From: a virus
Strand: one strand, 5' to 3'
Length of the DNA stretch: 33,700 bases
Virus record (IMG/VR): IMGVR_UViG_3300042562_002423
Span: 1-33,700 of that record
Positions 108 to 30,605 of this stretch are shown here, in pieces. Numbering within the stretch: position 1 is the first letter of the stretch; the number at the start of each line of letters is the position of its first letter. Made by a program: the position numbers and the translations under genes. The notes beneath the pieces were generated by a model. That model was not told the DNA's origin and made no database searches. It saw nothing but the letters and a program-made list of their open reading frames with translations.

Positions 108-500
108 ATGATACTTACGAGAGAAATTGAAATTAAGATAAGTGAGTCTAACTATCAATACTACGAAGACTTAGGATATGATATTTCAATTAGTGAGATA
201 ATAACCATACCTGTAGAATTACTTCCAAACGGGTCACATTATAAGATAAAATGTAAATGTGATGGATGTGGTACAGAAAAAGAAGTAATATACAAAAACT
301 ACCTAAAATACGACAACGAAAAATGGGGAGACTACTCATGTCGAAAGTGTTCTGAGGTCAAAAGAAAAGAGACATTAAGGAAAAACTTCGGTGTAGATTA
401 TCCCATACAAAATAAAAAAGTATTGTCAAAGATGAAAAAAACTCTGATTGAAAAATATGGAGTCGACAATATATCAAAAAAGAAAAAAAATAATGAATAA
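108..500 (+). CDS. Truncated phage endonuclease-like protein (N-terminal DNA-binding part only)
   Basis: This 130-residue protein resembles the N-terminal part of a family of phage proteins related to homing endonucleases. It has a cysteine-rich zinc-finger-like core (C49, C51, C54 and C78, C81), followed by two copies of a repeat of the type KxxxxxKFGVDxPxQ (NFGVDYPIQN near 93-102 and KYGVDNIS near 117-124). I recall full members as roughly twice this length, with a nuclease-like C-terminal part that is absent here. The reading frame stops in a lysine run straight after the second repeat. An ATG at 75 is also in frame, but the 108 start gives MILTREIEIKI, which matches the usual family N-terminus. 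The last 8 nt overlap the RNase R start. It is probably a non-catalytic remnant or a stand-alone DNA-binding protein. Confidence 0.6.
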   Translation: MILTREIEIKISESNYQYYEDLGYDISISEIITIPVELLPNGSHYKIKCKCDGCGTEKEVIYKNYLKYDNEKWGDYSCRKCSEVKRKETLRKNFGVDYPIQNKKVLSKMKKTLIEKYGVDNISKKKKNNE

Positions 501-2025
501 AATTAAAGAAGGAGACATATTCGAAACACAAGTAGAATTCTCCACATCAGGAAATGCTAATATAAAAGTAGAAGGACAAGAAATCTTCATACACAAAAAA
601 AAGACTGCAAATTCACTACACATGGATACGGTAAGAGTAGAAATATTCCAGGGACAGAAAAAAGTAGAAGGAAAAGTATTAGAAGTGGTATCGAGGTTCA
701 AAACTGAATTTGTAGGAACTGCACAGGTAAAGAATGATACGATATTTGTAGTAACCGATAGTCCTAGAATATCAGTTGACTTTTATATAAAAGGAGACTC
801 TGATGTTGAAAATGGTCAAAAAGTATTAGTAGAATTTTTAGATTGGGAAATTGGTAAAAAGTCCCCACGAGGTAAGATTATAAAAATATTAGGATTTGTT
901 GGTGAAAACAACACCGAAATGAATGCAATAATGTATGAATATGGTTTACCGATTGATTTTCCACAAGAGGCATTAAACGAGGCAGAACTTGTATCTGAGG
1001 TAATTTCCGAAAAAGAGATTAGTAAAAGAAAAGACCTTAGAAATGTGACTACTATAGGTATAGATCCGTTCGATTCAAAAGATGCAGATGATACTATTAG
1101 TTTAGAATTTATAAACGGTAAAAGATATATATCGATTAATATCGCAGATGTTACTCATTATATAAAACCAGAAACAGAACTTGACAAAGAGGCCTATAAA
1201 AGAGGAACCTCAGTCTACTTAGTAGACAGATGTGTTCCAATGCTACCACATAGACTGAGTAATGGTATATGTAGTTTAAAATCAGGAGCAGATAGATTGT
1301 GTTATACCGCAACTATGTGCATTGATGATAGTGGTAAGATTAAGGAAAAATGGTTCGGTAGAACAATTATTAATGTAGATAAGGATTATTCATACGAACA
1401 GGCACAGGAGGTAATCGAAAATGGTGGGGATGGTAGTGATACCGATTCAATTATATTAGAACTGGATAAGATTGCAAAGGTTATGAGAAAACGTAGAATA
1501 AAAGAAGGTTCTATTGAAATGGGTGGTAAAGAGGTTAAGTTTGATTTGGATGAGAATGGTAAACCATTGGGTGTTTATTTCAAAGAACAAAAGGATGCAA
1601 ATAAACTAATAGAAGAGTATATGTTATTGGCGAATAAAGAGGTTGCAAAATTCATAAAATCGAAAGAACTTCCTTGTGTTAATAGAGTTCACCCTACGCC
1701 AGATGATGAAAAGTTAATTCAATTGAAAAAGATTGCTACTAATTTTGGTTATGAGTTGGAGATAGGCGATCCGGATACTACAAAAATGGAGTTAAATAAA
1801 CTACTTAAAGATATAAAAGATACACCGGAGGAAAATATAATAAGTACTTTAGTTATTAGATCTATGAAGAAGGCCTATTACTCAACGGAAGAAATCGGAC
1901 ACTATGGCCTTGATTTTGAGGACTATAGCCACTTTACCAGTCCAATTCGCCGCTATTCCGATGTGCTAACACATAGGTTATTGACAATGGCATTGGGTAA
2001 TGATGGGTATCCTAAAAATAAATAA
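493..2025 (+). CDS. rnr: RNase R/RNase II-type exoribonuclease, cold-shock and catalytic (RNB) part
   Basis: The product (510 aa) resembles bacterial RNase R, a processive 3'-to-5' exoribonuclease. Residues about 8-140 look like the two cold-shock OB domains, without the N-terminal helix-turn-helix of cellular RNase R. The RNB domain starts near 185. The Mg-binding aspartates D191, D194, D197, D199 and D200 reproduce the DxxDxxDxDD pattern of E. coli RNase R. The HFTSPIRRYSDVLTHRLL block near the C-terminus is the conserved RNA-binding and catalytic arginine region. The protein stops just after that block, so the last RNB helices and the S1 domain are missing; they are encoded by the next gene in another frame. 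An in-frame ATG lies at 448, but 493 (ATGAATAAAATTAAAGAAG) follows the neighbouring stop and gives a sensible OB-domain start. Phage RNase R is uncommon and T4 has none. Confidence 0.9.
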   Translation: MNKIKEGDIFETQVEFSTSGNANIKVEGQEIFIHKKKTANSLHMDTVRVEIFQGQKKVEGKVLEVVSRFKTEFVGTAQVKNDTIFVVTDSPRISVDFYIKGDSDVENGQKVLVEFLDWEIGKKSPRGKIIKILGFVGENNTEMNAIMYEYGLPIDFPQEALNEAELVSEVISEKEISKRKDLRNVTTIGIDPFDSKDADDTISLEFINGKRYISINIADVTHYIKPETELDKEAYKRGTSVYLVDRCVPMLPHRLSNGICSLKSGADRLCYTATMCIDDSGKIKEKWFGRTIINVDKDYSYEQAQEVIENGGDGSDTDSIILELDKIAKVMRKRRIKEGSIEMGGKEVKFDLDENGKPLGVYFKEQKDANKLIEEYMLLANKEVAKFIKSKELPCVNRVHPTPDDEKLIQLKKIATNFGYELEIGDPDTTKMELNKLLKDIKDTPEENIISTLVIRSMKKAYYSTEEIGHYGLDFEDYSHFTSPIRRYSDVLTHRLLTMALGNDGYPKNK

Positions 2026-2030
2026 TTAAT

Positions 2031-2405
2031 ATGAATAATTTAAAAGACAAAAATAAGCTAGAAGAGTTGTGTAAGCACATATCTAAAAGAGAAGAGTTAT
2101 CAAGTAAAGCACAGAGAGATTCTATTAAATATAAACAAGCAGAATATCTGCAAGATAAAATCGGTCAAGTTTTTGATGGAATCGTAACCGGTGTATTGGA
2201 AAGAGGTTTATATGTCGAAATAATCGAAAATAAATGCGAGGGTATGATAAGAATGGATTCTATTGTCGGTAAATGGAATGTGGATTTGGAAAATTATTTG
2301 ATTATGAATCAAATAGGTGAGAAAATTCAGTTAGGTGATCCTATAAAAGTGATAGTTAGTTCAATTGATCTTCTTAAAAAACAGATAAACTTCTTAAAGT
2401 TCTGA
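2031..2405 (+). CDS. RNase R C-terminal part: last RNB helices plus S1 RNA-binding domain
   Basis: This 124-residue protein continues the RNase R homology that breaks off in the preceding gene. Residues 10-45 (LEELCKHISKREELSSKAQR onward) match the helix that closes the RNB domain in RNase R. Residues about 45-124 form an S1 domain, with the strand pattern GxVxGVLERGLYVEIIENKCEGMI. The start lies 5 nt after the upstream stop and in a different frame. Upstream of its ATG this frame is open only back to 2022. A one-base indel in the A/T run at about 2014-2025 would fuse the two pieces into a protein of about 636 aa. Either the enzyme works as two associated polypeptides, the gene is broken, or the sequence has an indel error. 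The TGA overlaps the next ATG (TGATG). Confidence 0.85.
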   Translation: MNNLKDKNKLEELCKHISKREELSSKAQRDSIKYKQAEYLQDKIGQVFDGIVTGVLERGLYVEIIENKCEGMIRMDSIVGKWNVDLENYLIMNQIGEKIQLGDPIKVIVSSIDLLKKQINFLKF

Positions 2406-2911: not shown

Positions 2912-4633
2912 TTAGAATTCAAACTCGCCTCCACCTTGTGCACCACCTTGTGCTGGAGGTGTCTCAGGCGCGGCTTGTGCACCACCTTGTACCGGAGCTT
3001 CCGGGGTGGCCTGACCACCTTCTGCTGGCATTTCACCTTCCATACCACCCTCTACCGGAGCACCACCTTCCGCACCACCAGCACCACCTTCAGGTCCGGC
3101 ACCTGTACCAGCGGCATCTTTTGCCCAGTATTTTTGATTTTCTGCTTTTTCCTCAGGAGTAAGTTTGAATATGTTATCCATGATCCATTCAATATGGAAG
3201 TAAGGCTTTTCACCATTCATAATACCGGTAAGTGTAGTTATCGCCTCTGCTCTTTTTGCCATATTGTTTATTTTCTTCCACTCTTCAAATATTTGATTTG
3301 TGTAAAAAATTATATCCATCTGATTAAGAACAATCTCATCCTCTTTTAATTCAGGAAACTCGATTAACATTTGTAATTTAAGAGGCTTTACTATAAGTTC
3401 TTTGAAATTTGCTCTGATTCTGGAAATAAAATTGTGAAACTTGATTTCATCCCTTGTCATTTCTGCAGCACCATCTACTAAATTTCCACCACCACTTTCT
3501 CCTTCGAATCTGGTCAATGGTATTTTAGAAGCTCTTTTAAGTGCTTGATGAAACCATTTAAGCATTGTTTCTTCGTTTAAGTCATGTCCCTGCGGAGATT
3601 TAAGTTCCATTGATGGTGAACCCGCATCACCCTCCGGAAACCATATTTGTTTATTATATGGAAGATGTTTAGATCCGTTTAGTGTCAGCGTTCCTAACGT
3701 GTCATCCCATTCTACTTCCTCGGAGTAATCATGAATAAGTTGTCCAATTTGTTCTTCTGCCCTTTGACGTGACAAACCTTTAATAGGAACCTTAAATTCC
3801 TGATATATTGTCGCGTTTATTACGTTGAACATGATCCTAGTTTGTTCAAGAATCTTCAACTGGTTATATGGCTTGATAAGTCCTTCGATATACGAAGTCT
3901 CTGAATAATCATTTTGTGTAGAATATGAAATGAATACAATCTGTGAATCCAAAAATATTCTTCTAAGTTGTGGATCTTCGGGGAATTGAATCCAAAGATG
4001 TCCCACGTTTGGTTCATATGCAGGAACAAGTGTTTCTGGTCTAAGTCTATTAAATGCAATGATATTTTTCTTTTTATCATCATATACAATCTCCACCGCC
4101 ACATAACCATCTATAAGAAAGTCCTTTATCATGTTCCATGCGGTGATACTATCTGAAAATCCATATTTGTTATAGATTTTTTCAAAGTACTCTTGATATT
4201 TGTCCTTTATTTCCTGTGAATAGTCATTTGAAATTGGTCTTGGTGAGCAGAAGTCTCTATCATCATTGTATACGATACATTCATCAGCAACAGCACTAAT
4301 CATATCACGAATTTCATCTTTTATAGAATACTCTCTAAGAATCCTTCTTTTATCACCATATGCTTTATCCAAATAAGGAATAGACTTTCTATTAAGAACT
4401 GATGCCACTGCTCTCTGCGAAAAGAAATCATACATTGAATTTCCTTTAGCAGCATACGGATCTTCATTGATTCCAATACCAACTTGGTTTCGAATTATCA
4501 TATCATCATAATTCATTCCATAGTTTGATAGAGTTCTAAGTATCCTACTAAAAAGTCCTTTGTTTTCTACAGCCGAGTTAACAAAACCCATACCCTGTCC
4601 TTCTCTTTCGTTGTTATAGTTATATGATGCCAT
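2912..4633 (-). CDS. 20: Portal vertex protein, T4 gp20-like
   Basis: The 573-residue product matches T4-type portal proteins (T4 gp20 is 524 aa). The portal forms the ring at the unique capsid vertex that binds the terminase and conducts DNA. The recognisable family core spans about residues 60-500. It includes the EIRDMISAVADECIVYND segment, the VEIVYDDKKKNIIAFNRLRPETL strand region, and the stem region KRASKIPLTRFEGESGGGN. The last 65 or so residues are a low-complexity Gly/Ala/Glu/Pro tail not expected in T4 gp20. The longest open frame begins at 4708, but its first 25 codons cover the AT-rich promoter and leader. The ATG at 4633 gives MASYNYNNE and lies 22 nt after a TATATATA box. Confidence 0.92.
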   Translation of the reverse strand: MASYNYNNEREGQGMGFVNSAVENKGLFSRILRTLSNYGMNYDDMIIRNQVGIGINEDPYAAKGNSMYDFFSQRAVASVLNRKSIPYLDKAYGDKRRILREYSIKDEIRDMISAVADECIVYNDDRDFCSPRPISNDYSQEIKDKYQEYFEKIYNKYGFSDSITAWNMIKDFLIDGYVAVEIVYDDKKKNIIAFNRLRPETLVPAYEPNVGHLWIQFPEDPQLRRIFLDSQIVFISYSTQNDYSETSYIEGLIKPYNQLKILEQTRIMFNVINATIYQEFKVPIKGLSRQRAEEQIGQLIHDYSEEVEWDDTLGTLTLNGSKHLPYNKQIWFPEGDAGSPSMELKSPQGHDLNEETMLKWFHQALKRASKIPLTRFEGESGGGNLVDGAAEMTRDEIKFHNFISRIRANFKELIVKPLKLQMLIEFPELKEDEIVLNQMDIIFYTNQIFEEWKKINNMAKRAEAITTLTGIMNGEKPYFHIEWIMDNIFKLTPEEKAENQKYWAKDAAGTGAGPEGGAGGAEGGAPVEGGMEGEMPAEGGQATPEAPVQGGAQAAPETPPAQGGAQGGGEFEF

Positions 4634-6846: not shown

Positions 6847-7146
6847 TTATTCTTTTATTGTTATTTCTTCCATTCCCATAAGATTATTCATCTGATACTG
6901 TGTAAGTCTTATAGATTTATCTTTTTCTACAAGTAAAAAAAGTGCGTCTTCAATGAACGCCTCAACACCCTCTCCGACAATCCTATCATACTCTCGTGGT
7001 ATGTATTCATCAGACTTTCTACTATCATAGATAGTCTTTATATAAGACTCCCTCTCTTTTAAGTCTATATGCATAGAACACCCATCAGGCCTTGTTCCAT
7101 TTCCTCTTTCGGATTCTTCCCAAATCTGTAAAATAACCTTGTTCAT
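6847..7146 (-). CDS. Hypothetical phage protein
   Basis: This 99-residue acidic soluble protein is not recognised. It has one cysteine in a GxRPDGCSMHIDLKERESYI segment and a helical C-terminal half. It is the first gene of a two-gene operon with the membrane protein. A TTAGTATATA box (7169-7178) lies 22 nt before the ATG. Confidence 0.7.
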   Translation of the reverse strand: MNKVILQIWEESERGNGTRPDGCSMHIDLKERESYIKTIYDSRKSDEYIPREYDRIVGEGVEAFIEDALFLLVEKDKSIRLTQYQMNNLMGMEEITIKE

Positions 7147-7193: not shown

Positions 7194-7847
7194 TTATACT
7201 CTTAACTTATATGCAAATGGAACTTTAACACCTTTAAGATCGGGAATATTAGAACCCTCTATTTTAACTATTTTTTTATACTTTTTTGATATCGATTTGA
7301 TTTGTTCACTAACATCATCAACTGATGTAAATGCAATCCCACCTTCTTCCGAAACTTTAGATTCCATTCTTGATGCGGTATTTACAACATCACCAAAGAA
7401 GTCGACAAGTTGTACATTTTGTATTTTACAATTTTTGGAAATCATCTTTCCGGAACAAATTCCAATTCTTAGTCTAAGTTTTTCGGTATTGGTCACTTCT
7501 ACTGCAAAATCAACAGCATTTTCAAGTGATTTTTCATCTTTATTAAAATATACCATAAATGCATCACCAATTGTTTTAACAACAAAACCACCATGTTTTC
7601 TGGCTAGATTATCCATCAATTCAAAATGTTTATTCAATTGCAAATCCATTGTTTTTGGATCTTCGGACCACATTTTAGAAGATCCTACGACGTCGGTGAA
7701 CAACATTGCCGGTGATGGACCACTAGTATCCTCACTTTTATTTTCCTCATAATGCCTTTGTGCGTCGCTAAGAAGTCTATCCGATCTTTTCGAAGAATCG
7801 ACATTCTCTACAGATTCAAAAAATTTAAATTCATTTATCCATTTCAT
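7194..7847 (-). CDS. Class III adenylate/guanylate cyclase-like enzyme
   Basis: The product (217 aa) is a single class III nucleotide cyclase catalytic domain (about residues 45-217) after a short polar N-terminus. All six canonical catalytic positions are present: metal aspartates D52 (LFTDVVGSS) and D95 (KTIGDAFM), purine-specifying K91 and D149 (VDFFGD), and transition-state N156 and R160 (VNTASRMES). The spacings K-x3-D, D-x6-N and N-x3-R match mycobacterial Rv1625c as I remember it. The Lys/Asp pair predicts ATP as substrate and cAMP as product. There is no membrane or sensor domain. The N-terminus MKWINEFKFFESVE resembles capsid-targeting sequences (see findings). The open frame runs to 7886 but the first 13 codons cover the promoter; ATG 7847 follows TATATATACAAT directly. 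Such an enzyme is unusual in a phage. Confidence 0.85.
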   Translation of the reverse strand: MKWINEFKFFESVENVDSSKRSDRLLSDAQRHYEENKSEDTSGPSPAMLFTDVVGSSKMWSEDPKTMDLQLNKHFELMDNLARKHGGFVVKTIGDAFMVYFNKDEKSLENAVDFAVEVTNTEKLRLRIGICSGKMISKNCKIQNVQLVDFFGDVVNTASRMESKVSEEGGIAFTSVDDVSEQIKSISKKYKKIVKIEGSNIPDLKGVKVPFAYKLRV

Positions 7848-7851
7848 ATTG

Positions 7852-7859
7852 TATATATA
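7852..7859 (-). promoter_or_regulatory. TATATATA box 4 nt before the cyclase ATG
   Basis: The - strand reads TTTATATATACAATATG. With a -10-like element this close, transcription would start at or next to the ATG, predicting a leaderless mRNA. The box is palindromic and also lies 50 nt before the divergent gene at 7910. Confidence 0.5.
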
Positions 7860-7909
7860 AATTTGTGGATATAATAAATAATACATATATTAGCATAAAA
7901 ATAGATATT

Positions 7910-8124: not shown

Positions 8125-8541
8125 TTATAGAGAATGTAGACCCATTCCGTCGTTTGATCCCTCAATAGAGATAAGTCTTATCTGATGTTCATTGTCGCCT
8201 TTCTTCTTATACAAGTCATTATATCCTTTGGCGATTCCTCTTTTGAATATTTCGGTGAAATATGCGAAGGCGTTTACCGATTTTTCTTCGTTGAAGTTAT
8301 ACCAGTTCTGAAATACATAAAGGAGTCCACTTTGGTAGCAATCCATCTTGTCGTCGTTCGACCAGTATCTCATTTTTTTGATTGTTTTCTTTGCTAAAAG
8401 CTCTAGCATTTTTTGCGCGGGTCTTGTAAGTCTTCCCTGTGCTTTACTGACTACTAATTCTATGTAAAGTTCTCTATTATTTAAGTACATTAATATTTGA
8501 TTAATTTTTAAGTTTTTATAAAACTTATTGAAATCTTTCAT
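8125..8541 (-). CDS. 55: Late-transcription sigma factor, T4 gp55-like
   Basis: The 138-residue protein matches T4 gp55, the minimal sigma factor that directs host RNA polymerase to late promoters (T4 gp55 is 185 aa). Residues 19-32 (YLNNRELYIELVVS) align with YVNNKELLQAIIDW of gp55. The block MDCYQSGLLYVFQNWYNFNE, then NAFAYFTEIFKRGIAKGYNDL (about 66-110), corresponds to the region 2-like core ([20 protein letters not shown]) that contacts polymerase and the promoter. The C-terminus is short and ends GMGLHSL; whether it binds a sliding clamp, as the gp55 tail does, cannot be told. The TATATA-type boxes before most genes here are its expected targets. A start at 8490 (MYLNNREL) is an alternative. 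Confidence 0.82.
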   Translation of the reverse strand: MKDFNKFYKNLKINQILMYLNNRELYIELVVSKAQGRLTRPAQKMLELLAKKTIKKMRYWSNDDKMDCYQSGLLYVFQNWYNFNEEKSVNAFAYFTEIFKRGIAKGYNDLYKKKGDNEHQIRLISIEGSNDGMGLHSL

Positions 8542-13308: not shown

Positions 13309-13959
13309 TTATTTTATGGCACAGAAGGTTGCACTATAGATATATCTTTCGTTTCTTTTCAATTTAACACCCATCACCTCTGCAGCAGTTTCGACATCCG
13401 TAAGACACTCACCATCCGCACCACCTACAAGAATAACATCTCTAACCTCACTCAAACCTTCATTTAAATTTTGTGCCTCAGCAACTTCTGTGAAAAGTTC
13501 GTGAAGCTTCTTTGGCATATGATACCATTTGTGCTTGTTGCCAATATAGACTATCAGAGTTCCCTCATTTGTAGGAAAAAAATCACCTTTCTTCAGTTCA
13601 TCCGCATCTTCTTTTACACTTACTTCTTTATAGGTTTCGGGAGTAAGAACTTTTTTATAAAAGTCCGCATCCACATCGTAATTATATCTCTTTTCAATTA
13701 AATCTTTTTGATTAGGGAAATGATAAAGGTCTTTATGAACCGGTATCTCTGGGTCTTCATCGTATAGATAGTCTTTATCAACGTTTTTCCCATCAACATG
13801 ATTATCCCAAATTTGATACACTTTACTAAACTCATTACAATATTTTTTCAACTCACTAACATACTTATCGGTGAAAAAGGAGCGGAAAGATTTTTGCACA
13901 TCAACTACAATAAGAATGTCTTTATTGCTGTGACTTTCGAATGTTTTTAGGTATCTCAT
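13309..13959 (-). CDS. Isochorismatase-like cysteine hydrolase with capsid-targeting-like N-terminus
   Basis: The product (216 aa) has the pattern of the isochorismatase/nicotinamidase superfamily. D20 lies in the first strand (ILIVVDVQKSF), K90 in IEKRYNYDVDADF, and the nucleophile C185 in VGGADGECLTDVETAAEVMG. The family hydrolyses amides or vinyl ethers such as nicotinamide; the substrate here cannot be read from sequence. An insertion near 105-160 is unusual for the family. The first residues MRYLKTFESHS precede the fold and match the N-terminal motif shared with three other proteins in the window. The ATG follows TTAATATATA by 4 nt. It heads an operon with two small genes. Confidence 0.78.
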   Translation of the reverse strand: MRYLKTFESHSNKDILIVVDVQKSFRSFFTDKYVSELKKYCNEFSKVYQIWDNHVDGKNVDKDYLYDEDPEIPVHKDLYHFPNQKDLIEKRYNYDVDADFYKKVLTPETYKEVSVKEDADELKKGDFFPTNEGTLIVYIGNKHKWYHMPKKLHELFTEVAEAQNLNEGLSEVRDVILVGGADGECLTDVETAAEVMGVKLKRNERYIYSATFCAIK

Positions 13960-14072: not shown

Positions 14073-14645
14073 TTAAGCTGGAAGTTCTTCCTCTTCTTGT
14101 CCTTCTTCTTCCTCTTCTTGACCTTCTTGACCCTGTATTTGTGGTTGAGTCTGTGGTTCTTCAAACTCACCCTGTGGTTGAGCTTGTTCTTGACCCTGTC
14201 CCTGTGGTTGAGCTTGTTCTTGACCCTGTCCTTGTGGTTGAGCTTGTTCTTGACCCTGTCCCTGTGGTTGAGCTTGTTCTTGACCCTGTCCTTGTGGTTG
14301 AGCTTGTGTTTGTGCCTCACCTTCAGTTTGTACCTGAACCTGACCCTGTGTTTGTCCTTGTGCACCACCCATTAATGCGTTTCCTGGAATCTTCTCAACG
14401 TCTGTGTTGTTAAGAGTTATGTATTTTACAATCTCTTCTGCGATGTCAACATCACCGAAAAATTGACGAAGATTTTTTCCTGTCGTATCTTTAACTTTCT
14501 TAACGTAAGAATTGATAAGTGATTGAGGAATATCAATCATAGTTTTAACCTTATAGATATCGTTCACTTGAAGAACAGCCTCACTGATTATCTCTTGTCT
14601 GTTTTTCTGAACTCTAAAACTTTCAAATTGTCTGATATGTTTCAT
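14073..14645 (-). CDS. Gln/Glu-rich repeat protein, candidate internal head protein
   Basis: The 190-residue product has three parts. Residues 1-22 (MKHIRQFESFRVQKNRQEII, then SE) resemble a T4 capsid-targeting peptide and end in I-S-E|A, which fits the T4 gp21 protease rule (I/L)-x-E|A. Residues 23-95 are a small helical domain. The rest is low complexity, with about four copies of the 10-residue repeat QPQGQGQEQA followed by an acidic EEEEEGQEEEE tail. It is a single-gene unit with its own late-type box (14672-14681, 26 nt upstream) and terminator. It could be an internal head protein, a core protein or another virion component. The functional call is inference; the gene itself is well supported. 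Confidence 0.75.
   Translation of the reverse strand: MKHIRQFESFRVQKNRQEIISEAVLQVNDIYKVKTMIDIPQSLINSYVKKVKDTTGKNLRQFFGDVDIAEEIVKYITLNNTDVEKIPGNALMGGAQGQTQGQVQVQTEGEAQTQAQPQGQGQEQAQPQGQGQEQAQPQGQGQEQAQPQGQGQEQAQPQGEFEEPQTQPQIQGQEGQEEEEEGQEEEELPA
14171..14310. repeat. 30-bp in-frame tandem repeats
   Basis: Four full 30-bp units and one partial unit start at 14171, 14201, 14231, 14261 and 14291. They are nearly identical; the second base of the unit is C, C, T, C, T in order. They encode QPQGQGQEQA on the - strand. Confidence 0.9.
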
Positions 14646-16493: not shown

Positions 16494-18647
16494 TTATCTT
16501 TTATTAAACCAGTTTATTCCATTTACATTAGTTCCTGTGTTTTGCACCTTTGTTCTATTCATAACCTGTCGTCTAGCCTTTAGAACCTGACCATAATCAA
16601 CACCTTCTACATAGTCCATATTTCGCATACAATCGTTTACATAGGCCATAAACTCCTTAGGACTATACTTATTACCCCATTCTTCTACCATCTCTTTGAA
16701 TTCGGATTTGTTGAAAATAGAAGTTGCGTTGACCACGGTCATAACGGTATCATCATGTCCTACATCCGCAGCATATCTTACATTACCGGCAGTAGTGACA
16801 TGCTTTACGAAAGTCGTTATCTCTCTAATATTGTCTTCGTTCGTTATACTAAATCCTCTACTATACATCAGATCCTGATAGTCCTTCACCATCATGTTTT
16901 TGTTCTCACCAACTTTTAACCCAATCTTTTCTTCGGTTGAATCTATCCTATGTTTATACCTAACAAATACCGATGATCCATAGTTGTTATTTCCATCAAA
17001 AACATGCGACATTTCTGCCAATAAAGTATTACCATAGTTGTTAAGCTCCAAAACTATTTTTACATTTTCAGGATTTAAATATTCGAATACCAAAAGATAA
17101 AGAAGCTCTGCTAATTGTTTGACAGAAACAAAGTTGTTTCTATATATACCAACCTGTTCAAGTCTAAAAAAGTCTATGATAGATTTATATTTATGTCTCT
17201 GTGTTTCTATTAAATCCATTGGTTTTTCAGAAATTTTGAATATGTTGATAATAGAATAATCTTGTCCCAAACCCTCTGATATATCGACAGAAAGAACATA
17301 TTTATAATCCTTTCTTTTTAATGGTATATGAACTTCATCATCATCTATCCATTTTAAGTCTTCATACGTAAACCGTAACTTATTCTTAAACTCCGAAATA
17401 TCCTCATGTATATAGTTCTTTTTGGATTTTAACAACTCATCTATTATTGCCTCGTTCAAAAGAGACTTACTTGAGTTGATAAACCTCAATCCATACTCCT
17501 GGTTGAACGCGTCTTCCCCACCAATATCCTTAACCGCCTCATCTTTCCAAGTAGTCATCTCAGCGATGGCCAGTATCGAAGTTTCGAATCCGTTTTTGTC
17601 GATAAAATGTAGTGATTTTACTTCTTCATCCGTACATTTATCATTGTTGAAGACATGAATTACATCCTTTTGTTGATCTAGGTTAAACTCAATCTTCGTC
17701 TTTGTGACTTCACCAAAAGTATTTTGTACTAATTTAAATATATCATCTTTTGTGACTCCATATTCATAAAGTTTATGTGGATTCAACCTTATATAGGTAA
17801 CAAACCTACCGGGAACCTGATACCAGTAAACCCTCATAGGTTTGTAGTTATTCTTCATTGGATCACCATCAGGTCTTTCTGCGTCAGTAAGCAGTCTATG
17901 GAACAAGTTCATACCATTTGGTGTCGATGTAATGATAATCTTCGAGTTTTGTACCGCAGAAACCGTCGGAAAGGCGGCAGTATAATATGGTTCGATGATA
18001 TTCGAAGGAATATGTGCGAACTCATCTAAGTAAAGAACATCAATGGTAAAACCGATTGCCGGAGTCTTAGACCTTGCAGAAGTTTTGATTCTACAACCAT
18101 TCTCAAATGTAAGAGATTTTTGATTCCAAGTCTTTACACCTGGTTTTAAGAAGAAAGGAAGTAAAGTATAGATTGATTTTACTTTATCAACAATCTCAAT
18201 GGCAGTATCACCTTTGTTGGCAACAATCATACAGTTCTTATCATTGCTAAACAAGATTGTATGTAGTATAAAAATGGCAGAAGACACGGTTTTACCTACC
18301 TGTCTAGATGCCATAAGTATGTTGAACCTATTATTTACAAAGTTGTCTAGTATTTCTTTTTGGTAATCTCTAAGTGTTATGGAACCAACCGACCCATCTT
18401 CTCTTTTCGTCTTACAATACTTCTCAGTAAAGTAATGTATATCTAATGCACATCTTACATATTCTTGTTGCTCATCGGGAGTCATTCTAAAAGATACACC
18501 AGATCTTCTGATACCGACTTCACTCTTCATCCATGGATTCTGATATCTCTTAACAACTATACCATCGTTTATCTTATCGGTTGCCTCATCGACAAATTTG
18601 GTTGTAAAAATCATCTGCCTTTCGGTATCGTTTGCTTTTACCGCCAT
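16494..18647 (-). CDS. 17: Terminase large subunit, T4 gp17-like DNA packaging motor
   Basis: The product (717 aa; T4 gp17 is 610) is the ATPase-nuclease that pumps DNA into the head through the portal. The ATPase domain shows the adenine-side segment LRDYQKEIL (about 92-100), Walker A SRQVGKT (114-120), Walker B VLYLDEFAHI (D208, E209) and the coupling motif TSTPNG (about 240-245). The nuclease domain begins near residue 445 with the metal-binding VLSVDISEGLGQDYSIINIF. A TATATATA box (18669-18676) lies 21 nt before the ATG. It is transcribed divergently from the small subunit gene, whereas in T4 genes 16 and 17 are adjacent on the same strand. Confidence 0.97.
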   Translation of the reverse strand: MAVKANDTERQMIFTTKFVDEATDKINDGIVVKRYQNPWMKSEVGIRRSGVSFRMTPDEQQEYVRCALDIHYFTEKYCKTKREDGSVGSITLRDYQKEILDNFVNNRFNILMASRQVGKTVSSAIFILHTILFSNDKNCMIVANKGDTAIEIVDKVKSIYTLLPFFLKPGVKTWNQKSLTFENGCRIKTSARSKTPAIGFTIDVLYLDEFAHIPSNIIEPYYTAAFPTVSAVQNSKIIITSTPNGMNLFHRLLTDAERPDGDPMKNNYKPMRVYWYQVPGRFVTYIRLNPHKLYEYGVTKDDIFKLVQNTFGEVTKTKIEFNLDQQKDVIHVFNNDKCTDEEVKSLHFIDKNGFETSILAIAEMTTWKDEAVKDIGGEDAFNQEYGLRFINSSKSLLNEAIIDELLKSKKNYIHEDISEFKNKLRFTYEDLKWIDDDEVHIPLKRKDYKYVLSVDISEGLGQDYSIINIFKISEKPMDLIETQRHKYKSIIDFFRLEQVGIYRNNFVSVKQLAELLYLLVFEYLNPENVKIVLELNNYGNTLLAEMSHVFDGNNNYGSSVFVRYKHRIDSTEEKIGLKVGENKNMMVKDYQDLMYSRGFSITNEDNIREITTFVKHVTTAGNVRYAADVGHDDTVMTVVNATSIFNKSEFKEMVEEWGNKYSPKEFMAYVNDCMRNMDYVEGVDYGQVLKARRQVMNRTKVQNTGTNVNGINWFNKR

Positions 18648-26034: not shown

Positions 26035-26577
26035 ATGAGATATCTAAAAAAATTCAAGTATTTTGAAGACGTTGAGGTAGATGCTACCGACGAACCGGAC
26101 GTAAAGTTGGCAAAGGAAGAGACTAATAATCTCGAGGAATACCTTAAAGACTTTCCGGCAGTAAAGGCAGAACTGGATAAAGCATTCACTGAAATAAAAA
26201 GTGACAAAGACAATGAACTTCTTAACCAGAGTATTGATGAAATAAAGAAAAAGTTTCCAGACAATCCATTCATAGAAGAGTATACACACATGATGAATCT
26301 ACAAATTAAAATAAAGTACATACAAGACGAATTGTTGAATTATAACGACGAATTATTCAAAAACGAAGAAGATCTTAAAGAAATAAGTACATCAGAAGGT
26401 GATACAACAGCCAAGACAGAGACTATAGATGATATAAAGTCTAAACAAAAGATAAAGACCGGGGAGATTACACAACTTCAAAAAGACCTAACAAAGGCAA
26501 AGGCAGATTTCGATAAGAAAATGAATGAAATAAAGAAAGAAATACAAGATTCTTCTAAAAAAATAAGTTCTATTTAG
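26035..26577 (+). CDS. Coiled-coil protein with capsid-targeting-like N-terminus
   Basis: The product (180 aa) is almost entirely charged helix, with a long coiled coil in the C-terminal half (KTGEITQLQKDLTKAKADFD, then KKMNEIKKEIQDSSKK). The first residues MRYLKKFKYFEDVE match the N-terminal motif of the cyclase, hydrolase and Gln/Glu-repeat proteins. It starts 1 nt after the stop of the 1116-aa gene, so the two are made together and may act together. The length and composition are like head core (scaffold) or internal proteins, but there is no direct homology I can name. Confidence 0.72.
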   Translation: MRYLKKFKYFEDVEVDATDEPDVKLAKEETNNLEEYLKDFPAVKAELDKAFTEIKSDKDNELLNQSIDEIKKKFPDNPFIEEYTHMMNLQIKIKYIQDELLNYNDELFKNEEDLKEISTSEGDTTAKTETIDDIKSKQKIKTGEITQLQKDLTKAKADFDKKMNEIKKEIQDSSKKISSI

Positions 26578-26645: not shown

Positions 26646-29600
26646 ATGGCAATTCAAATTGGAAAATACAAAAGACCGGGGATATTCCTAGAGGAATATG
26701 ATAACTCAGTTATCTCTAGTCCAGTTATTGAAGGACTTACGAACTTGGTAATAGGCGTGTCTAAAAAGGGACCTGTCAATACACCTATCAGAGTTACTAA
26801 TACGACAGATTTAGAGTCAATATTCGGTCAATTGGATCGAGGATTGGAGAGAAAGGGTTCGTTCTTTCATAGGACTGTTTCGAAAATGTTGGAATCGGCA
26901 CCAGTTTATGCAATAAACTTGTTACTTACCGACGATAACTTAGATGTTATTGAATATAAGTCTCTATCTACTTCAGCAGACTATACAAATGATGTTGAAA
27001 GAGAAGGACCTTATAGAAGATTTTTCGACACAACAGGTTTCTGGAAAAGAGATACTGAGTCTTTCATCAATCTTACTAAAAACAACACAGGATATTCTGA
27101 AAGAGCATTCAGTCTAACAAACTTATCCGATAAATTCGTAACGGTATTTGTTTTCAAATCGGCCATTACAGGATTCGATAGAAGTCTTATCGAATGGTAT
27201 GGTTCTGCAGAAAAAATGCCTTCTTATGTAGGTATAAATGATTGGGCATCTGATTATATGGTCGACGTTGTCATTGTTGGTGGGGATTGGTCAAACTATA
27301 AAGAGTTGGCTGTAGATTCTAGATGGAGTGCATACTTTAACGCAACAGGTCTTAGAAAGGAAAAAGTGAGAGAATTCACGAATGATAGAAACATAACACT
27401 TTTAGGATACTATGAAGGTCTTTCTTTAATTCCGTATTTTAGAGATACAAACGGTAGAAATATTTTCATCGAAACCGTGGTAAATAGAGATACTGATAGA
27501 ACAGGAGTATTTTGCACATTCAACAATGATTTGGTCGAAACGGATTTCTTTAATGGAAGATTAGACTTAATCGGTCATACTATTGCTGGTAAAAATGAAA
27601 CTAACATTGACTTCCTTTCTTACCAAGACGTAATTTCAGAAGAAATCGAAATAATTTCAAATCCTTTGGATTTACCAGGAAACGTAACTGCTTTATTGGG
27701 TGGTTCTTCTTCTACTTCACCAGCGGGATGGTTATACAATTCTGTAGGAGATCATCATGTATATGGTACCCCTAAAACAAAAGGGTGGGTTAAAAATGGA
27801 TCAGAAAGAACATCATACTTCGCAGAAGGATATATCTACAATGTTGGATTAGAATCAGATGTTTATTTTGGAACAAACTCTATTGTTGCAACATATTCTG
27901 TATTAAATACAGACTATGAGGCATTCTTAGTGGTAGGTGATAAGCAAGTTATCTTGGATCCACAATCGGTTAATTTAAAAATAGATACAAATAACTATTT
28001 ATATAGTAATACTGCAGCAACTTACTCATCGGCATTCGTTTTAGACTCTACCGGTAAATTTAAAGTGGTAAATAGTACAAATTCAAATAACCCATCAGTA
28101 GCATCCAGTGATACCGTATTGGCATATGTTAAGTTCAAAGTATTGGAACAAAAAATAACAGGTAGTCCGGTTTGGAATAACATAAGTTTGGAAGAAAGTG
28201 GATTTAAAAACTTTACATTTGGTAGTACATCTGCAGACTACTATGTTGAGGCAGTTGTAGGTGCAACCGGATCAGTAAAAGTATCATTTATTGATACCGA
28301 CACATCTATAAGCGTAAAAGAGTATGCACAGTATAGAAGATTCAAAATGTTCAACAGACTGGTTGACTTAATTGATAGTCCTAATAAGGAAAAAATGGTT
28401 ATGTTAAAAAGTCATACCGATAATTTATTAACAGAAAACAAAGGTAATAAAATTAGTTTAGCGGATATTTCAATATCAAATATTGTTACTTCTTCTACAA
28501 GGGATAAATCTTTTGAACTTAAACTTCCATTCGAAACGACCGAATTAAATGATATATTAAATGGATTTTTAGTATTCTATACAGTTGATGACGAGTTTAT
28601 ATTAGGTGCAAAGGGTGCAAAAACACAAGTTGAAGTTGCAAACGAATCAGAATTTGGTGTAGTTGCCAAATATTCGAAACTATATACAAGATACTACGAT
28701 GGTGTAATAAACACAGGAGATTTCTTTTATGCAAACAAAATACCTCAAGGTATATTAGAGAATGCGGACGCAACACCTTATGTAGATGGTTCTGAATATA
28801 TATCAGATGTTTATTTCTTTGATGGTGAATCTACACTGAGTGTATTTGGGTTGACCGAAGGATTAAACGTAGGACCTACATCATCAGCAGCTGGATATGA
28901 CTATATCGCATTTAACTCTACTGAAGATCCTTCATTAGAATTATACGATATTATATCAATAAAAGGTGCTACAACAAACACAGGTACCTTTACAATAATA
29001 TCAGAAAACCAAATCGGAAATATTGGAACTGCAAGTGGAATATGGAACTATGTTTATAAAGTAAATGAAGAAACTTCTTACGAAAGAGTTCAAAATGTTT
29101 CAATAATAGAAGACTTCAACACTAAACATTATCTTAAAATGTATGTTGATAATGCTGGAAAAAATCTAAATATATCATTAATGAATGATACTTTTACATC
29201 ATATGAAGAAGTAAATACAAATACTGCAGGTACTATTGGAATAAAATCCGCAATAACAAACTACAAACAGTCTTTAGAGGTTGAAGTTCCAACAGGATAT
29301 GTTCAAGTACCCAACAAAGTTCTTGTAAATGGTGCTAGATATACTGAAGTTAAAGTTGGTGATTTCTTAGAAGCATTTTATGATGAAAGTACTTTAAGAG
29401 TAGGAGAATATCCTAGAAAGTTGACAAGAGTTGTATCGAAAAGACAATACTCAGGAAACGCAGACTTAGTAGAGATTACTTGTGATTCTAGAATAAAAGT
29501 AACTACATTTGGTACAGACTTACAAACAATGAGATACAAAACGGTTGATAACTATTCATTGACTTACAAAGCAATCTCTCTTAAAGGATTTAGAGTAAGA

Positions 29601-30605
29601 GAAGCATCATTACCTGATGGAACAGAAGCAAAACAAAACACGTTATTGAATCTTGTATCAAAAGGAACTCCAATGTTCAAAGCGATTACAAATAAAGAAG
29701 CAATCGACTTTAGATACCTAATCGATTCGTTTGGTTTAGGTTTAACAGAGAAATCAAAACAACAATTGGTAGACATCTGTGGAGATAGATTAGACGCGTT
29801 TGGATTCCTGAACATGCCTTCTATGAAGTCATTCAAAAACTCAAGCTCACCTTCTTTCGTAAACAAAGAAGGAGTTCTTCAGACAGAGTTCATCGCAAAA
29901 GGTGGAGATCCTGAAAGTGGACCAGCATTCCTTTACTCATTCGGTGATGGTGCAGGTACAACTTGTGTTGGTTACTTCATGCCATACTTATCAGTAAATG
30001 ATAATGGAAGACCATTGGATATGCCACCAGCATCTTTTGCAGCAACAACGTATATGAGAAAACATACATCAAATGTTGGATCTATTACTCCTTGGACAAT
30101 CGCGGCAGGTGTTACTAACGGTAGAATAACGAATATCGCTGGATTAGAAATGGACTTTACCCCAACTGATATCGAGTGGTTAAATGGTGCACAAATTAAC
30201 CCAATCGTTTTCAAAAGAAATAGAGGAAATATTATCGAAACCGAAAATACTGCACAAACTCTTTATAAATCAGCACTTTCTTATATTCACGTAAGAGAAG
30301 TACTTATCGAACTTGAAAGAGAATTGTCAAGAATGTTGTTAGACTTCCAATGGAGATATAACACACCGGATATCAGATCTGAAATCAAACTTAGAGCTGA
30401 CGTAATCTGTGAGACATACGTAAGTAGAAATGGATTATATAACTACTTCAATAAAATGGATGAGGAAAATAATACCACAGAGATTATCGACAACCAAATC
30501 GGTGTTCTTGATACTTACGTAGAGCCTATCAAAGGTATGGGAATCATTGTTAACAATGTAACTATATTAAGAACAGGAGCTATTGCAGCAGGTGGATTCG
30601 CATAA
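26646..30605 (+). CDS. 18: Contractile tail sheath protein, T4 gp18-like, unusually long
   Basis: The N-terminal residues 1-110 (MAIQIGKYKRPGIFLEEYD, then VIGVSKKGPVNTPIRVTNTT and LESIFGQ) are typical of tail sheath proteins. The C-terminal region from about residue 1000 (GTPMFKAITNKEAIDFRYLI to TYVEPIKGMGIIVNNVTILR) is the conserved sheath core that forms the contractile lattice. At 1319 residues it is twice T4 gp18 (659). The extra 650 or so residues lie in the middle and are beta-rich, Ser/Thr/Asn-rich and presumably exposed on the outside of the sheath. No intein splice motifs were seen. It is a single-gene unit with its own promoter box and terminator. Confidence 0.94.
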   Translation: MAIQIGKYKRPGIFLEEYDNSVISSPVIEGLTNLVIGVSKKGPVNTPIRVTNTTDLESIFGQLDRGLERKGSFFHRTVSKMLESAPVYAINLLLTDDNLDVIEYKSLSTSADYTNDVEREGPYRRFFDTTGFWKRDTESFINLTKNNTGYSERAFSLTNLSDKFVTVFVFKSAITGFDRSLIEWYGSAEKMPSYVGINDWASDYMVDVVIVGGDWSNYKELAVDSRWSAYFNATGLRKEKVREFTNDRNITLLGYYEGLSLIPYFRDTNGRNIFIETVVNRDTDRTGVFCTFNNDLVETDFFNGRLDLIGHTIAGKNETNIDFLSYQDVISEEIEIISNPLDLPGNVTALLGGSSSTSPAGWLYNSVGDHHVYGTPKTKGWVKNGSERTSYFAEGYIYNVGLESDVYFGTNSIVATYSVLNTDYEAFLVVGDKQVILDPQSVNLKIDTNNYLYSNTAATYSSAFVLDSTGKFKVVNSTNSNNPSVASSDTVLAYVKFKVLEQKITGSPVWNNISLEESGFKNFTFGSTSADYYVEAVVGATGSVKVSFIDTDTSISVKEYAQYRRFKMFNRLVDLIDSPNKEKMVMLKSHTDNLLTENKGNKISLADISISNIVTSSTRDKSFELKLPFETTELNDILNGFLVFYTVDDEFILGAKGAKTQVEVANESEFGVVAKYSKLYTRYYDGVINTGDFFYANKIPQGILENADATPYVDGSEYISDVYFFDGESTLSVFGLTEGLNVGPTSSAAGYDYIAFNSTEDPSLELYDIISIKGATTNTGTFTIISENQIGNIGTASGIWNYVYKVNEETSYERVQNVSIIEDFNTKHYLKMYVDNAGKNLNISLMNDTFTSYEEVNTNTAGTIGIKSAITNYKQSLEVEVPTGYVQVPNKVLVNGARYTEVKVGDFLEAFYDESTLRVGEYPRKLTRVVSKRQYSGNADLVEITCDSRIKVTTFGTDLQTMRYKTVDNYSLTYKAISLKGFRVREASLPDGTEAKQNTLLNLVSKGTPMFKAITNKEAIDFRYLIDSFGLGLTEKSKQQLVDICGDRLDAFGFLNMPSMKSFKNSSSPSFVNKEGVLQTEFIAKGGDPESGPAFLYSFGDGAGTTCVGYFMPYLSVNDNGRPLDMPPASFAATTYMRKHTSNVGSITPWTIAAGVTNGRITNIAGLEMDFTPTDIEWLNGAQINPIVFKRNRGNIIETENTAQTLYKSALSYIHVREVLIELERELSRMLLDFQWRYNTPDIRSEIKLRADVICETYVSRNGLYNYFNKMDEENNTTEIIDNQIGVLDTYVEPIKGMGIIVNNVTILRTGAIAAGGFA

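Follow-up and report, generated by a model that had tools for sequence, protein, structure and literature searches.

A stand-alone class III adenylate cyclase with a capsid-targeting-like N-terminus in a relative of the Mahaphages: a candidate virion-delivered enzyme

What use does a phage have for a nucleotide cyclase that consists of a catalytic domain and no sensor? The gene that raises this question lies in a 33.7-kb virus record (positions 1 to 33,700 of IMGVR_UViG_3300042562_002423), referred to here as the window. The window is a piece of a relative of the 634–642 kb "Mahaphage" genomes, for which Bacteroidetes are the predicted hosts (Al-Shayeb et al. 2020; PMC7162821). It encodes a T4-type portal, terminase, tail sheath, tail tube, baseplate wedge protein, clamp loader, and late sigma factor. 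Its closeness to the clade is apparent in the core proteins, as the portal is 82% identical to that of LR745206 (634 kb) and 77.5% identical to that of LR756502 (642 kb), compared with 48–51% for 636- and 735-kb phage genomes.

2912–4708, minus strand (the cyclase strand): T4-type portal protein, core start near 4633 (PF07230, E 5e-58)

Two further genes of the window are unusual in length or integrity. At 1319 residues, the tail sheath protein (26646–30605, plus strand) is double the length of its T4 counterpart, and its sheath match falls in the C-terminal part. An RNase R-like gene (448–2405, plus strand) is split by an in-frame stop into 448–2025 and 2031–2405; in G001 and G003 it is a single unbroken ORF of 627–642 residues.

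The cyclase gene and its catalytic domain

The interval 7194–7847, for which the earlier note had named no strand, is open on the minus strand only, the plus strand being full of stops. We place the start at ATG 7847 because the majority of homologues begin at the corresponding codon and not at the upstream ATG, and because the longer ORF from ATG 7886 gains its 13 additional codons mostly by reading an AT-rich box as codons, a stretch that ends in TTTATATATACAAT.

7194–7847, minus strand: class III nucleotide (adenylate) cyclase gene, 217 residues plus stop, start ATG 7847 (PF00211)
7197–7742, minus strand: catalytic domain, from residue alignments and the structure model
7692–7694, 7575–7577, and 7563–7565, minus strand: catalytic residues D52, K91, and D95, respectively
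7401–7403, 7380–7382, and 7368–7370, minus strand: catalytic residues D149, N156, and R160, respectively
7743–7814, minus strand: linker of variable length and sequence plus KRSxRLL region, from the alignment (pLDDT <50 at residues 9–37, low confidence in the model)

PF00211 is the sole domain of the 217-residue protein (E 8e-25; 82.5 bits against a cut-off of 21.9), which bears out the earlier description of a phage-encoded class III cyclase with a complete active site and a stand-alone catalytic domain lacking a sensor. The six catalytic residues occupy exactly the positions claimed for them. All six are invariant in 13 of 13 phage homologues examined. They hold in a set of 10 homologues, in all homologues at 70–77% identity, and in a second, remote set at 43–54%, and an HMM profile alignment places each on the identical residue of T. 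brucei GRESAG 4.1. Agreement of this kind goes far beyond chance. D52 and D95 form the metal Asp pair, N156 and R160 the Asn/Arg pair, and K91 and D149 the K/D purine pair. As had been proposed, this invariant K/D pair argues for ATP as the substrate. The residue preceding R160 is a small one, Ser, as would be expected in an adenylate rather than a guanylate cyclase, a reading based on PDB entries 5d0g and 5d0h, whose titles mention a KDA-to-EGY conversion.

The earlier note had also suggested a structural comparison and a search for conservation in related phages. The latter gave the 13 homologues described above. For the former, an AlphaFold model (pLDDT 78.5; core mostly 83–95; residues 9–37 disordered) superposes on solved adenylate and guanylate cyclases, best on 6sir (Z 19.8, rmsd 2.4 over 166 residues). 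With the class III adenylate cyclases of PF00211 (Ma1120, GRESAG 4.1, RhGC) the phage protein shares the fold (Z 17–20), the metal Asp pair, the K/D pair, and the Asn/Arg pair. Values of dN/dS among the homologues range from 0.08 to 0.26, indicating that the gene is under purifying selection. Given these residues, the fold match, and the dN/dS values, we predict that the enzyme is very probably active.

In contrast to cellular class III cyclases, the phage cyclase has no sensor and belongs to a group of its own. Cellular homologues reach at most 38% identity among those found, and the phage cyclases form a single group in the tree (support 93/93; 92% of bootstraps), on which grounds we rejected a recent gain from a host. 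The neighboring archaeal placement is unsure, as long branches meet there. A further match of 31% occurs in MT838110, a fecal contig of uncertain nature.

The N-terminus of the cyclase and its counterparts across the proteome

The first 11 residues of the cyclase are conserved among the phage homologues, whereas the linker that follows them is not.

7815–7847, minus strand: capsid-targeting-like N-terminus MKWINEFKFFE, with a predicted cut after E11, between FFE and S (13 of 13 phage cyclases; T4 control; gene-start enrichment)

All 13 phage cyclases start with M-x-x-h-x-x-[FYW], hydrophobic or aromatic at positions 4 and 7, and all 13 carry a cleavage-like site, [FILV]-[FN]-E-[SAD], within 15 residues of the start. 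Among 79 cellular homologues, one loosely matches the motif, with a start that resembles a signal peptide. The N-terminal motif M-K-x-h-x-x-F ending in Glu is shared with the T4 internal proteins IpI, IpII, and IpIII and with T4 Alt. Two remote phage homologues nearly reproduce the T4 signal (MKTFIEFINES and MKSFKEFINES, compared with MKTYQEFIAE, cut before A, in T4 IpIII). The motif of the window and its close relatives is longer than that of T4 by one residue ahead of the Glu. In T4, the first 10 residues of IpIII are enough for packaging, and heterologous proteins fused to this signal are packaged and delivered (PMC9026906; also PMC9958956). Residues 4 and 7 of the T4 capsid-targeting signal weigh most in targeting, whereas processing depends on residues 8 and 10 (PMC9026906). 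The prohead proteases of T4 and giant phages cut after Glu (PMC5694885). The motif could serve another localization. The two cyclases with nearly T4-like starts (in the regions L099:3886-7611 and L101:3909-6271) lie amid small genes that themselves have T4-targeting-like starts (MRTFKEYLIET, MSNFLKYEEFINK, and MRNLIDYDQFLFEE).

We then compared the frequency of the pattern M[KR]x[ILVFYM]xx[FY] at gene starts with that at internal Met residues, genome by genome. In T4, the positive control, it occurs at 5 of 279 gene starts, namely those of IpI, IpII, IpIII, 61.1, and gp38. In LR745206 it is found at 94 of 949 protein starts and at 12 of 3042 internal Met residues (p 7e-47). Two contigs of the window's own lineage gave 19/155 starts versus 3/685 internal Met residues and 11/122 versus 4/699, and part of LR756502 gave 46/500 versus 5/1901. 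The negative controls were cellular contigs (5/512 starts) and the T4-like Tenacibaculum phage PTm1 (4/310 starts). Since the motif is missing from PTm1, it is a trait of the clade, and we rejected the idea of a general trait of T4-like phages. The pattern occurs in none of the 49 T4-homologous core genes checked.

Two other causes of the enrichment were considered and rejected. Once the first 15 residues are removed, the 94 signal-bearing proteins of LR745206 fall into 85 clusters and are otherwise unrelated, so the signal behaves as a module and is not explained by paralogy or common descent. Codons within the motif match genome usage, which places the selection on the protein and excludes a cause at the nucleotide level. 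Past the motif, the residue following the first Glu is enriched over background for Ser (6.2-fold), Ala (3-fold), and Asn (2-fold), and the residue two before that Glu is mostly F, L, or I. By analogy, this sequence pattern corresponds to the hydrophobic-x-E rule for cleavage by the T4 protease.

Three further proteins of the window carry such a start:

13309–13959, minus strand: w19, signal MRYLKTFESHS, isochorismatase-like by eye, not recognized by Pfam
14073–14645, minus strand: w20, signal MKHIRQFESF, conserved in the 634- and 642-kb phages
26035–26577, plus strand: w33, signal MRYLKKFKYFEDVE, a coiled coil

w19 is also conserved in the 634- and 642-kb phages and is possibly an injected hydrolase. 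In LR745206 (L027–L046, L064–L075) and LR756502 (L276–L293), the start MK[YH][LI]Kx[FY]..E is found on about 10% of the proteins, and these make up a candidate list of injected proteins. A scan of 20 signal-bearing proteins returned a NUDIX domain (L027:18783-19247), an amidase match below the cut-off, and no Pfam match for the other 18.

Gene neighborhood, late-type box, and head-assembly genes

The cyclase gene is flanked by two conserved genes and directly preceded by an AT-rich box.

8125–8541, minus strand: w12, T4 gp55-like late sigma factor, upstream neighbor of the cyclase (phrog_234 late sigma factor, E 3.6e-7)
6847–7146, minus strand: w9, conserved downstream neighbor, function unassigned; w12–w9 is the cyclase insertion slot
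7848–7861, minus strand: late-type box TTTATATATA followed by CAAT, abutting the cyclase ATG; the transcript is possibly leaderless

The late sigma factor is 98–100% identical across syntenic relatives. Of 80 loci that hold its gene, 15 contain the cyclase, and in these 15 IMG/VR loci it occupies the same place between the sigma gene and w9. In most of the cyclase-free loci, and likewise in LR756502, sigma and w9 are still close together. In LR745206 and L096–L102 the cyclase lies elsewhere in the genome. Because it is patchy in the slot and differently placed in these genomes, we regard it as a cargo gene that can be exchanged within a core late region. The slot (8125 to 7146 in the window) often holds an opposite-strand ORF of about 350–376 residues with no assigned function in L003–L016 and L182–L261, which stands in place of the cyclase or next to it.

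Once the box T[AT]{2}TATATA had been identified in these genomes, it was checked against gene classes that had been defined independently. It lies ≤60 nt from 18 of 22 homologues of T4 late genes, compared with 6 of 27 early ones (p 4e-5). In LR745206 it precedes 49 of the 94 signal-bearing genes and 162 of 726 others (p 5e-9); the same comparison did not reach significance in the two partial contigs. The late box of T4 itself, TATAAATA, is not enriched at gene starts here. The box stands directly before the cyclase ATG in the window, in G001, and in LR745206, and its frequent position ≤15 nt from the ATG suggests leaderless late transcripts in Mahaphage relatives. Within the window, the TAATATATA/TTTATATATA box is seen at late gene starts at 7852–7861, before 16494–18647, before 26646–30605, and at others.

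A candidate for the processing enzyme is encoded in the relatives, past the point that corresponds to the left edge of the window, which ends before this gene. There, a protein of 700–717 residues combines a putative S77-like protease domain with 11–12 Y[LI]AE repeats and is followed by the capsid gene. Of 9 related records, 8 have a PF03420 match at this place between portal and capsid (E 8e-6 to 2e-4), all of them weaker than the Pfam cut-off requires. The order portal, putative protease-scaffold, capsid is that of T4 genes 20-21-22-23. Unlike in T4, protease and scaffold are fused in one gene, an arrangement that PTm1 shares and that is so annotated there.

Proposed delivery, rival readings, and meaning

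The best explanation of these observations, and one that we consider probable, is that an active stand-alone class III adenylate cyclase serves as virion cargo, is injected with the DNA, and raises cAMP. The cyclase would be expressed late, from the phage late-type promoter, and residues 1–11 would attach it to the prohead core. A protease resembling T4 gp21 would then cut behind E11 and so set the cyclase free inside the head, from where it would enter the host together with the phage DNA. The injected enzyme would convert host ATP to cAMP ahead of any phage gene expression, and this cAMP would act on host cyclic-nucleotide receptors. A search for PF00027 cNMP-binding proteins in LR745206 and eight related contigs found none. 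The likely receiver is therefore a host protein, either a transcription regulator or a cyclic-nucleotide defense receptor that cAMP would saturate. The absent sensor would be explained because control lies in delivery. The control by timing and localization that had been envisaged earlier thereby acquires a concrete form, in a capsid-targeting-like N-terminus and a late-type promoter.

A simpler possibility is an ordinary metabolic gene whose product is made and works in the infected cell, unpackaged, with the motif in another role such as anchoring. The presence of the cyclase in 15 of 80 late-sigma loci fits an accessory gene, as host-modifying genes often are. We nevertheless find this reading rather unlikely, given that the start is common to about 10% of the proteome, in unrelated proteins with T4 targeting and cleavage features, and that the late synthesis implied by the box suits packaging better than an early take-over. 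The other extreme, a catalytically dead structural passenger, would account for the head-targeting-like signal; the conservation of all six catalytic residues in homologues with as little as 43% identity, together with the low dN/dS, makes it very unlikely.

Two readings turn to defense. The enzyme, packaged or not, could swamp receptors of the Pycsar or CBASS type by supplying a cyclic nucleotide that competes for them. The relatedness of its sequence to PycC (E 9e-8) and the accessory distribution of the gene point this way, as does the precedent of T4 IPI, an injected anti-restriction protein (PMC9958956); we hold such counter-defense to be possible, if on the whole improbable. The reverse arrangement, a phage-borne Pycsar-like module that acts against rival phages through an adjacent effector, could draw on w8, a small membrane protein encoded two genes downstream of the cyclase. 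However, w8 and w9 also occur in phages that have no cyclase, PADLOC finds nothing in either, and the PF00027 search described above was negative. With the effector absent and the neighbors persisting without the cyclase, we rejected this module, which is largely refuted and exceedingly improbable. The link to Pycsar that the earlier note had drawn was thus not supported: hits to the PADLOC PycC models are partial and weak, the 634-kb relative has no cNMP-binding protein, and w8 is independent. PycC and the phage cyclase share the class III domain; the latter differs in lacking a paired cNMP-binding effector, in a K/D pair that argues for ATP, and in its head-targeting-like signal.

Returning to delivery in the virion, the closest functional parallel is T4 Alt, also an enzyme delivered with the DNA. 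By analogy, the cyclase would work as Alt and the internal proteins do. In contrast to the T4 internal proteins, a nucleotide cyclase is the putative cargo, about 10% of the proteome bears the signal, and MK[YH][LI]KxF is the clade's own variant. The nearest precedent is provided by polyvalent proteins with GGDEF or RelA/SpoT domains, from which invading elements were suggested to use injected nucleotide-signal enzymes (PMC5512222). Like the phage cyclase, these are encoded near late genes; they are large, multidomain, and of other cyclase types, whereas the phage cyclase is a single-domain class III enzyme with a T4-type signal. A search of open-licence papers, a narrow basis, turned up neither a class III cyclase packaged in virions nor any mention of this signal in Mahaphages.

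At the level of the clade, we lean slightly toward a modular injection system of Mahaphages in which about one-tenth of the proteome bears a T4-like label, with the adenylate cyclase as one exchangeable cargo that produces a cAMP burst on entry; this would make it the first class III cyclase to be delivered in a virion. If this is true, what the phage delivers ahead of gene expression is a ready-made protein, a second-messenger enzyme, and for this route of take-over we found no report among class III cyclases. The putative targeting peptide should be transferable and could be assayed in T4, using cyclase residues 1–20 and also MKTFIEFINESKNE. With the label, the probable injected proteins of the largest known phages could be listed directly, although most of these proteins are without known function, and it would become testable why giant phages hold so many genes.
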